Below, piece by piece: positions 16,196-20,489 of a DNA stretch of 64,000 nucleotides; the stretch's first letter is position 1; the number at the start of each line of letters is the position of its first letter. The translations under genes were made by a program, and so were the position numbers. The stretch is taken from contig NZ_JH109152.1 of assembly GCF_000190755.2 (NCBI RefSeq), forward strand, positions 2,359,937 to 2,423,936, written 5' to 3'. The notes under the pieces were generated by a model, which saw only the letters and a list, made by a program, of their open reading frames with translations, searched no databases and was not told where the DNA came from. This DNA is from Methylobacter tundripaludum SV96. GTDB lineage: Bacteria; Pseudomonadota; Gammaproteobacteria; Methylococcales; Methylomonadaceae.

Positions 16196-16824
16196 ATGCT
16201 TAATTTTATTAAATCGAGTCTGAAGTATTTTATAGTGGTATTTTAGCGGTCATTCCGGTTGTTATTGTCATTCAAGTCCTGGTGTTTTTGGAAACTATCC
16301 TAAGGGATTTTTTTATTTATATTTACGGGTACTCCAACAATGTCTTTATGACTGTTTTGGCATTCACGCTGTCTTTTGTTGCAATCGCTTATACCGGTTA
16401 TCGGGTCACCGTATCCGAAAAAATGTGGGTGCTGCATCAAGTCGAATTATTGATTAACCGGATTCCAATGATCAGGACGATTTACAGAGTCAGCAAAAAA
16501 CTGGTCAACCTGCTCGGTAGCCAGGAAAAGAGCGTAGCCAAAGAAATTGTTTTTATCGAATACCCCAAGGACGGCTTATGGGTGCCGGGCTATGTCACCA
16601 ATAAGGTGGGCGAGATGCTGGTTGTCTATGTGCCGACTTCGCCAAATCCAACTTCCGGATTTACCATTATTGTGCATCAATCAAAGGTCGTGAAATCGAG
16701 CATGGATATTGAAGCGGTTACCAGTTTTATTGTCAGTGTCGGCGTTGATTTGCATCAAAAAGAGGAGCTTGAAAAGCTTGCCGACTTGGAGCGCGCCGGA
16801 ATCAGTAACCAGACAAGCAAGTAG
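16196..16824 (+). pseudogene. DUF502 membrane protein, apparent frameshift near its start
   Basis: The long frame from 16282 encodes the body of a DUF502 protein: membrane segment FMTVLAFTLSFVAIAYTGY, then RIPMIRTIYRVSKKLVNL, and the soluble part with VPGYVTNK and VPTSPNPTSGF. The natural start is the ATG at 16196, preceded by AGGAG, which reads MLNFIKSSLKYFI and then hits TAG at 16244. The missing first membrane helix (GILAVIPVVIVIQVLVFLE) continues from about 16237 in the other frame. Joining the two frames at about 16228-16236, next to TATTTTAT, restores a normal N-terminus. This is a real frameshift or a sequencing error; a shorter protein from GTG 16282 would lack the first helix. Confidence 0.75.
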
Positions 16825-16869
16825 GCGAGCGGTTTAAAGCGGATGGCAATTATTATCGAGAAACATCTA

Positions 16870-16985
16870 TTGCATGATTAACAAAGCATAAAAGGCTGCT
16901 CCAGTTATTGCAGCGCTCATTACGCTCCGTTGAATGGTGCGAGATAATGACCTGCCCAAAGCTTTTCTCACCGCAAAATGAATAT
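16870..16985 (-). pseudogene. Relic of sterol desaturase, internally deleted
   Basis: Minus-strand sequence matching two parts of the intact desaturase gene. 16880-16900 (TTAACAAAGCATAAAAGGC) parallels its downstream edge at 18519-18537, and 16914-16985 parallels 18890-18968, including CGTTGAATGGTGCG, ATGATGACCTGCCC-like sequence and TTTCTC(A/G)CCGC(A/G)AAATGAA. The stretch between, some 350 bases in the intact copy, is missing. No frame is open over a useful length. It shows that the RtcA module now lies between a broken and an intact copy of one gene. Confidence 0.65.
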
Positions 16986-17154
16986 AGGCTGGGTTACGAC
17001 TTTATCGTTAACCCGGCAGATGCAAGCACAAAGAGTTGGGTTGCTAATAACATAACGAGCCGACTGCATTCCACGCTTTCGACGGGGCATTGACGATGGT
17101 TTTCACGATTCAACGGCTGTTTTTGGATCATCCTTTAATAGGGGGATTTAATAG

Positions 17155-18216
17155 ATGACAGATAAGCTCATCATCGACGGTTCCCACGGCGAAGGCGGCG
17201 GGCAAATCCTGCGCAGCGCGTTGAGTCTGTCCGCCATTACCGGGCGTCCGGTGCGCATCGAGAAGCTCCGCGCGAACAGGAAAAAGCCGGGGCTGGCGGC
17301 GCAGCATCTGACTTCGGTGCGGGCGGCGGCGATGCTCTGCGACGCCGAAGTGAAGGGCGCGGAACTCGGCTCGCAAACGCTGCAATTCATCCCCCGCAAG
17401 CCGGTTCGGGCCGGCGATTACTTCCTGGACGTGGCCCATGCACGGGAAGGCGGCAGCGCCGGTGCGGTCATGCTGGTGCTGCAAACCCTGCTGCCGCCGT
17501 TGGCGTTGGCTACGGGGGTATCCAACGTTATGTTGCGCGGAGGCACGCATGTCGACATGAGTCCTTCCTACGATTACGTGCATGATGTCTGGCTGCCCAC
17601 GCTCGCCCGCATGGGCGTGCGCGCCGAGCTTTCACTGATGCGATCCGGCTGGTACCCGGTGGGGCGGGGCGAAGTGAAGCTGCGGATCGAGGGGGCTGAA
17701 AAATTGCTGCCCCTGCGCCTGGAACATCGCGGCCCGCTGCGAGCGGTTACGGGACGCGCCCTGGTCGCCAACCTGCCCGCCCATATTTGCGAACGCATGG
17801 CTGCCCATGCGCGCTATCTTCTGGAGCAGGCCGGGATGGCGGCGAAAATCGAGACGGTCGTTATGAAGGCAGCCTGCCCCGGAGCAGGCTTGTATTTGAC
17901 GGCGCATTACGAAAACAGCTTGGCCGGTTTCGGCGCCCAAGGGAAGCGCGGAAAGCCCGCCGAGCAAGTCGCCGAGGAAGCCTGTTTTGCGCTCTTGCAG
18001 CACTATCGATCAGGCGCGGCCCTGGAGCAGCATCTCGCCGATCAGTTGATCCTGCCGACCGCCTTGTGCCGGGGCGAATCCGTCTTCGGCGTCGAGCGCA
18101 TCAGTCCGCACCTCGTCACCAACGCCTGGGTAGTCGAGCGTTTCGGACTGGCGCGGATAGACATCGTCCCGGCCGCCGATGGAACCGGTTTCGTCAAAAT
18201 CCTTGCAAGCGGGTAA
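17155..18216 (+). CDS. rtcA: RNA 3'-terminal phosphate cyclase
   Basis: Cytoplasmic RtcA, 353 residues (E. coli about 338). It converts an RNA 3'-phosphate to a 2',3'-cyclic phosphate using ATP, through an enzyme-AMP intermediate. The family opening IIDGSHGEGGGQILRSALSLS occupies residues 5-25, followed by KLRANRKKPGLAAQHLTSV and REGGSAGAVMLVLQTLLP. The active-site histidine block appears late (SVFGVERISPHLVTNAWVVE), with the conserved His in ISPHLVTN. GGGGGATTT precedes the ATG. The next gene, 7 bases on, encodes an MJ1316-type RNA-end domain. No RtcB or RtcR is visible in the window. Confidence 0.95.
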   Translation: MTDKLIIDGSHGEGGGQILRSALSLSAITGRPVRIEKLRANRKKPGLAAQHLTSVRAAAMLCDAEVKGAELGSQTLQFIPRKPVRAGDYFLDVAHAREGGSAGAVMLVLQTLLPPLALATGVSNVMLRGGTHVDMSPSYDYVHDVWLPTLARMGVRAELSLMRSGWYPVGRGEVKLRIEGAEKLLPLRLEHRGPLRAVTGRALVANLPAHICERMAAHARYLLEQAGMAAKIETVVMKAACPGAGLYLTAHYENSLAGFGAQGKRGKPAEQVAEEACFALLQHYRSGAALEQHLADQLILPTALCRGESVFGVERISPHLVTNAWVVERFGLARIDIVPAADGTGFVKILASG

Positions 18217-18223
18217 CGCTCTC

Positions 18224-18475
18224 ATGATCCCCATTCAAGACCTTCTCCATCGCATCCGCTGGGACCCGGAATTCGGCCGCGGCGAGTTCGTCATCGGCTA
18301 TTACGACCGGGTTGAGCACAAAATCATCCGCGTGCAGTTTCGCGAAATCGCATTTCCAAAGGACGGCCCCGGCGTTTTCGAACTGATCGACCATGAGGGA
18401 CAAGTGCATACCATTCCCTTGCATCGGGTCAGGTCGGTTTACAAGAACGGCGAGTTGATCTGGCATCGGGAGTGA
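18224..18475 (+). CDS. DUF504 / MJ1316 RNA cyclic-end recognition domain protein
   Basis: Small cytoplasmic protein, 83 residues, consisting of one domain. RIRWDPEF at residues 9-16, the VIGYYDR motif, VQFREIAF and the closing IPLHRVRSVYKNGELIWHR match the DUF504 (MJ1316) family, proposed to recognise cyclic-phosphate RNA ends. The ATG at 18224 is only 7 bases after the rtcA stop, so both are probably co-transcribed. The pairing of an enzyme that makes 2',3'-cyclic ends with a domain predicted to bind them supports a joint RNA-end role. That link is inference from family knowledge and neighbourhood. Confidence 0.85.
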   Translation: MIPIQDLLHRIRWDPEFGRGEFVIGYYDRVEHKIIRVQFREIAFPKDGPGVFELIDHEGQVHTIPLHRVRSVYKNGELIWHRE

Positions 18476-18519
18476 GCGGGGATGCCGAGGCATCCCCGCA
18501 AATGCCCATGCAGTCATGG

Positions 18520-19551
18520 TTAACAAAGCGTATAAGGCCCCTGCATTGAGGGACGGTCAAATGGGTTTGATTGCTTTCTGACGGCCTTATCGCCATAAAC
18601 CATCCTGATAATTTCCCTCTTGGCTTCCAGCCAGTCGCGCAGTTCATTCCCAGGCTTAAATTCACGTTTTTCCGCTTTGTAATAGGCCGCTTCGGCGATC
18701 ATCGATTTAAGGTTCACATCCAGCTCGTAGACAGGGACGGGGTTCTCCGGGGTAAACCCAAACTTAACAAGGCCTAAAACGGTTTGCGGCGAGCTGTTTT
18801 TAATGCCGATTTCCGCCGGTTCCAATTCCGCCAACGTGCCGAAAAGACGATCCCATATCGAAAAGACAGCGCCGTAGTTGGTGTCGTGCTCGTTGCGTTC
18901 CGTTGAATGGTGCGCACGGTGCAAATAGGGCGCGATGATGACCTGCCCCAAGCGTTTCTCGCCGCGAAATGAAATATTGGTGTGATGAAACATGATGAAT
19001 AAGGTCAATAGGGTTTCATTGGTCAGCACCATCGTTGCGTCTACGCCGAGCAAGATAATGTAAGCCGATTTCAGCGCGGTGATGATTAACAGCTCGACAA
19101 TATGCAGCCGGAATGCGGTCGAGACATTCAAATAAGGATCGTTGTGATGCACTTTGTGGAACATCCACAGGCCGTCAAAGCGGTGACTGAGCCTGTGCCA
19201 GCAATAGAGCATCAAATCGAGCAATACAAACGACAGCAGGGCTTTCCATGCAGTATTGGCGATGTAACTCAGCAGTCCCTGCTCTGAATAGCGTTCGGCC
19301 ACCATCAACAAGGGCGTTGCCGACAGTAACGAGATAACGATACTGTTAAAAACAAACAGGCCGACATTGGTTCGATAAGACTGACGCGACTGTTTAAGGG
19401 ATAAGCCGCGCTTGGGATAGTTAAGCTCAAGAGCCGACAGGACGACAAATGCAATAAGCAGGATCAATGTCGCCAGTTCTCCCGACATGCTTGAGAGCCC
19501 TGTTAAATAGGACTCAACAAAGGTGATGAGTGACGTAATTTCGCTGGACAT
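18520..19551 (-). CDS. Sterol desaturase / fatty acid hydroxylase family protein with DUF2934-like tail
   Basis: Integral membrane di-iron oxygenase-type protein, 343 residues. Three to four hydrophobic segments are followed by the histidine boxes WHRLSHR, MFHKVHH, FHHTNI and HRAHHSTE, which form the non-haem di-iron site. After about residue 280 a soluble tail carries IAEAAYYKAEKREFKPGNE, LRDWLEAKREI, which matches the short DUF2934 domain, normally found as a stand-alone protein or a tail in other families. The substrate is unknown (a lipid, sterol or hopanoid is possible). Two decayed partial copies of this gene lie at 10132-10341 and 16870-16985. Confidence 0.88.
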   Translation of the reverse strand: MSSEITSLITFVESYLTGLSSMSGELATLILLIAFVVLSALELNYPKRGLSLKQSRQSYRTNVGLFVFNSIVISLLSATPLLMVAERYSEQGLLSYIANTAWKALLSFVLLDLMLYCWHRLSHRFDGLWMFHKVHHNDPYLNVSTAFRLHIVELLIITALKSAYIILLGVDATMVLTNETLLTLFIMFHHTNISFRGEKRLGQVIIAPYLHRAHHSTERNEHDTNYGAVFSIWDRLFGTLAELEPAEIGIKNSSPQTVLGLVKFGFTPENPVPVYELDVNLKSMIAEAAYYKAEKREFKPGNELRDWLEAKREIIRMVYGDKAVRKQSNPFDRPSMQGPYTLC

Positions 19552-20060: not shown

Positions 20061-20489
20061 TTACGCATCCGCGCTATTTAGCCAAAGATCGTGCTTATTG
20101 CATAGGCTTAGCGCGTACACCGCGCCGCTGTAGTTTTTAAGCGTAAATGTTGAAACAGCCGCATTGTCCTTGGTTGGGTCAAACAAATGTTCATCGATAA
20201 ACTTATAGTTCTTATCTAACAGGACATGCTTAACAATGTAATGTTCGTAGCCTTTTATTTCGTGGGGAGTGACAATTTTTACGGTGGTAACGTCTTCGGC
20301 TTTGGTAATTTCAATAGTGGGCAAATGGGTGGCTACTTTTCCCGCCCAGCGCCCCGGTGCTTCTTTTGTATAATAAATATCCCTTGATGCCGTTGCCTGC
20401 TCATCACCGGCAGCCAGTGCCAGGGTGGGCGTGATTAGGCTAGCGCCTGCGCTTGCTACACTTAAGCGAATAAAATCGCGACGTTCCAT
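20061..20489 (-). CDS. Tat-exported superoxide reductase-like protein (desulfoferrodoxin family)
   Basis: Predicted periplasmic iron protein, 142 residues. The N-terminus ERRDFIRLSVASAGAS followed by LALAAGDE is a Tat signal. The mature part is a neelaredoxin/superoxide reductase fold with the ligands of the Fe(His)4Cys centre in order: the His of THLPTIEI, the two His of PHEIKGYEHYIV, and Cys and His of CNKHDLW near the C-terminus. Superoxide reductase reduces superoxide to peroxide without releasing oxygen; a related role in sulfur chemistry (SoxY/Z-like folds) is less likely because all metal ligands are present. AAGGAATTACT precedes the ATG. The next gene upstream, a cytochrome c lipoprotein, may supply electrons (inference). 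Confidence 0.8.
   Translation of the reverse strand: MERRDFIRLSVASAGASLITPTLALAAGDEQATASRDIYYTKEAPGRWAGKVATHLPTIEITKAEDVTTVKIVTPHEIKGYEHYIVKHVLLDKNYKFIDEHLFDPTKDNAAVSTFTLKNYSGAVYALSLCNKHDLWLNSADA

Follow-up and report, generated by a model that had tools for sequence, protein, structure and literature searches.

The window analysed here, a stretch of 64,000 nucleotides from Methylobacter tundripaludum SV96, carries two adjacent genes that encode an RtcA family protein and a small MJ1316-domain protein. These two genes, their neighbours and a related locus elsewhere in the genome are as follows.

16282–16824: DUF502 gene (Pfam), the upstream neighbour of rtcA
17155–18216, + strand: rtcA, 353 amino acids (PF01137, RTC_insert, TIGR03399)
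18217–18223, + strand: the rtcA/MJ1316 junction of 7 bp, read from the sequence
18224–18475, + strand: MJ1316-domain gene, 83 amino acids (PF04457)
18520–19551, − strand: fatty-acid-hydroxylase gene with a DUF2934 tail (Pfam), downstream of MJ1316
599–1033 of locus L025 (same genome as the window, other contig): archease gene, with RtcB directly behind it

The preliminary description had placed RtcA 7 bases from an MJ1316-domain protein, and this is borne out: both reading frames are intact, lie on the same strand and pass their family cut-offs. A 7-bp junction is what would be expected of one transcript. The nearest relatives of both proteins, among the matches listed, are Methylobacter records, and the genes upstream of the pair vary between relatives. 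On the downstream side, L059, L060, L062 and L064 likewise have a relative of the fatty-acid hydroxylase, one or two genes after MJ1316. Further along the window, the − strand at 20061–20489 encodes a desulfoferrodoxin-like protein (PF01880, 32 bits), the N-terminus of which resembles an export signal by eye.

The first protein of the pair scores 424 bits against TIGR03399 (cut-off 250; residues 6–335), 258.5 bits against PF01137 and 77.9 bits against RTC_insert, exceeding the curated cut-off over its full length. It is a member of the RNA 3'-terminal phosphate cyclase family, and cyclase activity is predicted from its sequence. The column that we take to hold the catalytic (adenylated) histidine, a role carried over from E. 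coli RtcA, is histidine in all 69 aligned RtcAs; the window residue is H319, which aligns with the histidine of both E. coli and P. horikoshii RtcA. An insert of 6 residues at approximately positions 94–99 is present in seven of the 69 rows, namely the window, four of its kin and two sister rows, and the RtcA of L061 is without the stretch that holds it. Both rtcA and the MJ1316 gene are under purifying selection (dN/dS 0.10–0.20 in 8 comparisons with relatives).

The second protein matches PF04457 at 95.9 bits (cut-off 26.3) over profile positions 1–75 of 75, which places it in the family. The list of open reading frames gives its start as 18179 (98 amino acids), and the ATG at 18224 agrees with the start in relatives. 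Pfam names this family the 'RNA cyclic group end recognition' domain. The idea reportedly goes back to work by Burroughs and Aravind in 2016. By the account in PMC6514570, which cites it, it is a computational proposal that MJ1316/PF04457 recognises the cyclic ends of RNA. By Pfam the window protein has the same domain, and a part in RNA repair, as proposed, would suit it; the fusions of MJ1316 to repair domains described there are eukaryotic, whereas the window protein is bacterial, stands alone and lies beside rtcA.

Ten residues are invariant across 80 aligned MJ1316 sequences, W13, R29, H67, R68 and W80 among them. The AlphaFold2 model (mean pLDDT 91) consists of one helix and seven strands in a small-barrel type of fold, and the protein is a single domain of 83 amino acids that lacks any added effector or DNA-binding module. 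Among solved structures the nearest are SspB-like folds (Z 7.6), the WYL domains of PafBC and DriD, YaeO and Hfq, all tied at Z 6–7.6. The likeness to the WYL and Hfq/Sm small barrels (Z 6–7.1 over about 60–73 residues) is thus tied with that to unrelated folds and has no counterpart in sequence, as none of the 80 MJ1316 members gave a WYL or Sm match. WYL domains are nucleic-acid sensors and Hfq is an RNA binder; the predicted model fits an Sm/WYL-like nucleic-acid-binding barrel. Foldseek found no match to the model at E ≤0.001 in the PDB or among viral models, and the search by sequence for a solved MJ1316 relative returned a best PDB match of E 0.67, which is not related. A tree of MJ1316 (89 columns, 13 of 77 inner branches starred) was too poorly resolved to be used for counting origins, and both it and the alignment leave out the degraded MJ1316 of L118. 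A mobile origin of MJ1316 was considered and rejected, with no match in viral contigs (searched with the single sequence and with the 80-row alignment) or in plasmid or phage collections.

The genome comprises 4.85 Mb in three contigs, with the pair on contig 1, and contains one MJ1316, one RtcA and one RtcB. This sole RtcB, of the long type, lies on contig 2 immediately after the archease gene. The preliminary description had the pair without RtcB or RtcR. The pair has no RtcB next to it, and the neighbours scanned with Pfam include no RtcR; since the single RtcB sits on contig 2 behind archease, the statement about RtcB is valid for the locus and not for the genome.

The pairing of rtcA with MJ1316 is real and recurrent. 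Public genomes were scanned for MJ1316, and of the 155 loci obtained the analysis covers the best 80, the ranking being by similarity to the window. These 80 come from Gamma- and Betaproteobacteria, Desulfobacterota, Verrucomicrobia, Propionigenium and others. RtcA lies in the fetched flank (≤6 kb, often less) of 19 of the best 80 of 155, comprising the seven closest relatives of the window (L059–L065) and 12 of the other 73; by chance RtcA would be expected within 6 kb of roughly 0.24 of the 80. In 14 of the best 80 of 155 rtcA immediately precedes MJ1316 in the same orientation, at gaps of −4 to 61 bp. The junctions in L059–L065 are gaps of 2–7 bp with the gene order of the window. Elsewhere there are overlaps of 4 bp (L077, L087, L127) and gaps of 1 bp (L103, L111), 36 bp (L095) and 61 bp (L100, where the RtcA match is limited to a C-terminal stretch). 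RtcA and MJ1316 are divergent in four Nitrosospira/Nitrosovibrio loci, and in L134 RtcA is ~3 kb downstream of MJ1316. When neighbours were clustered over 81 loci (the window and the best 80 of 155), RtcA was the commonest family, found at 18 loci, 17 of which have it at offset −1 or −2; the second-commonest family, at 11 of the 81, has widely scattered offsets. The preliminary description had named a lack of recurrent pairing in other genomes among the outcomes that would refute it; with RtcA flanking MJ1316 in 19 of the best 80 of 155 loci, in four groups of the RtcA tree, the pairing survives this check.

Within the genus, seven of the 20 listed members have RtcA and the same seven have MJ1316, the two being adjacent in all seven; one of these rtcA genes is cut by a contig end and one is frameshifted. 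Outside this genus, the rtcA–MJ1316 pair occurs in two members of another genus. Other Methylococcales loci, e.g. L067–L071, have MJ1316 with no RtcA in the flank. At a few loci the rtcA beside MJ1316 appears damaged: it is split over two frames in L064 (4927–5981), where the frameshifted gene is next to an intact MJ1316, and in L022 (550–1604), where MJ1316 is partly covered, and it has an internal in-frame gap in L061 (5043–5987). The damage in L064, L022 and L061 may be decay or sequencing error.

In a tree of 69 RtcA rows, a 40-row clade (100/100) contains E. coli RtcA and 26 of the 27 RtcB-adjacent rows. The window RtcA and its kin fall outside this classical clade, beside two unlinked RtcAs from MJ1316 genomes. 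Inside it are six of the 17 unlinked RtcA rows from MJ1316 genomes, together with the loosely linked L134, so MJ1316 genomes imply no special RtcA; and because the rows outside the clade were drawn almost wholly by way of MJ1316 genomes, a private RtcA type cannot be claimed. Same-strand pairing with MJ1316 requires four groups, or changes, on the tree, three of which are forced by supported branches, with gains and losses counted alike. The RtcA trees leave out L063, L064 and L100 (RtcA piece <250 model residues) and L158 (a duplicate). RtcB labels on the tree derive from the 1.5-kb flank; three more rows, L141, L142 and L161, have RtcB within 1.6 kb by genome coordinates, and all three are inside the classical clade.

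The distribution of MJ1316 across genomes ties it to a particular set of enzymes. In a family sample of 201 genomes, MJ1316 occurs in 21, RtcA in 33 and archease in 38; in one of the 21 (G060) MJ1316 is broken by a stop. Archease is present in all 21 MJ1316 genomes vs 17 of the 180 others (p = 2e-18). MJ1316 and RtcA occur together in 15 family genomes (p = 2e-9 among the 201). With the nine carriers of the pair removed, RtcA is still present in six of the 12 remaining MJ1316 genomes (p = 0.001). The association persists among the 38 archease genomes, which divide into 15 with both, six with MJ1316 only, one with RtcA only and 16 with neither (p = 5e-5). At the level of genera, all seven that have MJ1316 fall within the 11 of 29 that have archease (p = 2e-4). 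The genomes of the family are related to each other, and counting by genus corrects for kinship only in part.

In the wider survey, whole-genome searches covered the MJ1316 genomes of 50 of the 61 loci whose flanks hold no RtcA. RtcB is found in 47 of the 50, long-type RtcB (>500 bits) in 41, archease in 40 and RtcA in 20. The ten in which archease was undetected are L066, L080, L082 (Verrucomicrobia), L076 (Propionigenium), L073, L083, L102, L098, L112 and L123; three of these (L098, L112, L123) are also without RtcB, and the other seven have some RtcB match. In a phylum sample of 398 genomes, with RtcB in 90, long-type RtcB in 12, RtcA in 19 and MJ1316 in 3, all three MJ1316 genomes have the long-type RtcB. 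In L057, a locus from this sample, MJ1316 and rtcB overlap by one base, the MJ1316 start falling on the final base of the rtcB stop codon. Such proximity is uncommon: RtcB or archease lies in the MJ1316 flank at just five of the best 80 of 155 loci, vs 19 of 80 for RtcA, L057 being additional to these. Of the new leads to come out of this analysis, the link of MJ1316 to archease-type RtcB is the most useful.

The surroundings of RtcA also differ with the presence of MJ1316. In the phylum sample, all 18 RtcAs besides that of the window have RtcB within 1.6 kb, vs just four of the 21 unlinked RtcAs in MJ1316 genomes (p = 2e-7). A further 12 RtcAs of the family comprise nine from genomes without MJ1316, eight of them flanked by RtcB, and three from genomes with it, none of them so flanked. 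These counts suggest that bacterial RtcA occurs in two settings, one coupled to rtcB and the other uncoupled, in genomes with archease and MJ1316. A shared partner of the unlinked RtcAs was sought at 25 loci (L169 unplaced) and, RtcB aside, the recurrent neighbours came from close relatives only, except for one weak pair (L055 and L173). In L164 and L165, which hold the RtcAs nearest the clade of the window, the next gene on the same strand encodes 479 amino acids and has, by eye, the look of a PolX-type polymerase with PHP.

A few other protein families recur near MJ1316. One of them resembles a primase-polymerase and precedes MJ1316 on the same strand, either with rtcA between them or directly.

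L077, 874–1746, same strand: Prim-Pol/PriCT-1-type protein before rtcA–MJ1316
L087, 4046–4918, same strand: Prim-Pol/PriCT-1-type protein before rtcA–MJ1316
L127, 4046–4918, same strand: Prim-Pol/PriCT-1-type protein before rtcA–MJ1316
L108, 5076–5861, same strand: relative of the Prim-Pol protein directly before MJ1316 (Pfam)
L114, 5090–5986, same strand: relative of the Prim-Pol protein directly before MJ1316 (Pfam)

The protein in the first three has 290 amino acids, and the L087 copy contains Prim-Pol and PriCT-1. A similar Prim-Pol-like protein was seen by eye upstream of the unlinked rtcA of L166. A small family of ~80–90 amino acids is found near MJ1316 in L087 (3855–4088), L113 (7673–7939), L129 (375–626) and L078 (7170–7646) and, by eye, downstream of the same unlinked rtcA in L166; the three copies scanned gave no Pfam match. 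A ribosome-hibernation-type protein lies one or two genes from MJ1316 at five of 81 loci (the window and the best 80 of 155), namely L074, L085, L086, L089 and L134, the L086 copy combining S30AE with a cold-shock domain.

The known chemistry of these enzymes provides the frame for interpretation. RtcA converts 3'-phosphate ends of RNA to 2',3'-cyclic phosphates, and in Salmonella a tRNA half bearing a cyclic phosphate, raised by RtcA, is the signal for the CARF domain of RtcR (PMC7790460). RtcA also makes 2'-phosphate ends cyclic, so aiding ligation by RtcB (PMC10630183), and RtcB is in turn activated by archease (PMC3973293). Relative to the classical rtcBA operon of E. coli and Salmonella, the pair has the same RtcA enzyme family and the same expected chemistry (PMC7790460), but it differs from that RtcR/sigma-54-controlled system in having no adjacent rtcB, with MJ1316 in its place, an RtcA that does not group with the rtcB-coupled ones on the tree, and no good sigma-54 site upstream. 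The preliminary description had called the pair a minimal arrangement unlike rtcBA. This is apt as regards the missing neighbour and the different RtcA clade, but the genome does encode RtcB, and MJ1316 tracks RtcB and archease. At a different locus, the genome of the window also has an archease–RtcB pair, the arrangement known as an operon from Pyrococcus and various bacteria (PMC3973293), as MJ1316 genomes usually do. RtcA and MJ1316 are extra to that operon, and the passages of PMC3973293 on archease–RtcB make no mention of MJ1316.

In the region upstream of rtcA (16825–17154), no −24/−12 sigma-54 site with two or fewer mismatches was found; two + strand matches, at 16859 and 16897, have three mismatches each. 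Control by RtcR and sigma-54 found no support in this stretch or among the Pfam-scanned neighbours, which include no RtcR. A sigma-70 scan of 16700–18700 gave no match, and no Rfam family reached the gathering score in 16600–18800. A search of open-licence full text for MJ1316 together with RtcA, or for DUF504, returned no match, and judged against that literature the pair is a new arrangement of known repair parts.

Taking the chemistry of RtcA, the RtcR signal, archease and RtcB together, the pair most likely prepares and holds RNA ends for archease–RtcB. The reading we prefer, to which we give about an even chance, is that rtcA and MJ1316 form a two-gene operon, presumably co-transcribed, that serves as an accessory module of RNA repair by archease-type RtcB. 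Acting on broken RNA, which is probably tRNA, RtcA would turn 2'- or 3'-phosphate ends into 2',3'-cyclic phosphates; the MJ1316 barrel would bind the cyclic end, or RNA bearing such an end, and may keep it ligatable or hand it over to RtcB, which archease would keep cycling. That cyclised RNA ends are the common theme, as the preliminary description had it, is plausible and fits both families. Its suggestion that the pair marks, senses or protects such ends is, on its own, less well supported than ligation, given the archease–RtcB of the genome, the tracking of RtcB and archease by MJ1316 and the overlap in L057. A broader scheme is more tentative, and we regard it as possible but rather less than probable: a modular repair set of archease–RtcB, RtcA and MJ1316, sometimes joined by a Prim-Pol that would rebuild or extend the end, and separate from the RtcR-controlled rtcBA.

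Two other explanations need to be weighed against the accessory module, both of which seem unlikely. In one, RtcA marks broken RNA with a cyclic phosphate and MJ1316 binds it, either shielding it from processing or reporting damage, ligation not being the end point. This draws on the tRNA-half signal to RtcR CARF that is raised by RtcA (PMC7790460), on the presence of WYL domains and Hfq among the closest folds of the MJ1316 model, and on the three of 50 MJ1316 genomes without detected RtcB. RtcB is nevertheless present in the other 47, every one of the 21 MJ1316 genomes in the family sample has archease, and MJ1316 is a single domain of 83 amino acids with no effector or DNA-binding part.

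The other explanation, which we consider doubtful to the same degree, makes MJ1316 itself the partner of RtcB and archease, or of a tRNA splicing-like ligation, with its pairing to rtcA reflecting mere co-regulation, RtcA and MJ1316 being linked neither physically nor through a substrate. The one-base overlap of rtcB and MJ1316 in L057 and the broken rtcA beside an intact MJ1316 in L064 are in keeping with this, as are the counts for the 50 MJ1316 genomes without adjacent rtcA, 30 of which lack RtcA altogether while 47 have RtcB. Against it, RtcA is by far the commonest neighbour (18 of 81, counting the window and the best 80 of 155) with varied tight junctions, and the two genes co-occur beyond expectation even when unlinked (p = 0.001). 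Chance adjacency or passive hitch-hiking of genes that share no function, consistent with the patchy occurrence of the pair (seven of 20 listed genus members) and the differing upstream genes, is already disfavoured and very improbable in view of the four RtcA-tree groups, the differing junctions that include 4-bp overlaps, the purifying selection on both genes and the 19 of the best 80 of 155 loci observed where 0.24 were expected.

The accessory module thus remains the reading that we favour. The cyclic-end role of MJ1316 is so far a computational proposal in the source that cites it, and sequence searches turned up no relative of solved structure; with 83 residues, a confident model and ten invariant residues, the protein leaves the idea open to simple testing. 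As the pairing recurs and MJ1316 occurs mostly in genomes with an RNA ligase, MJ1316 is probably an RNA-repair helper that has received little study, and the domain is now tied to a specific set of bacterial enzymes consisting of archease-type RtcB and, optionally, RtcA.
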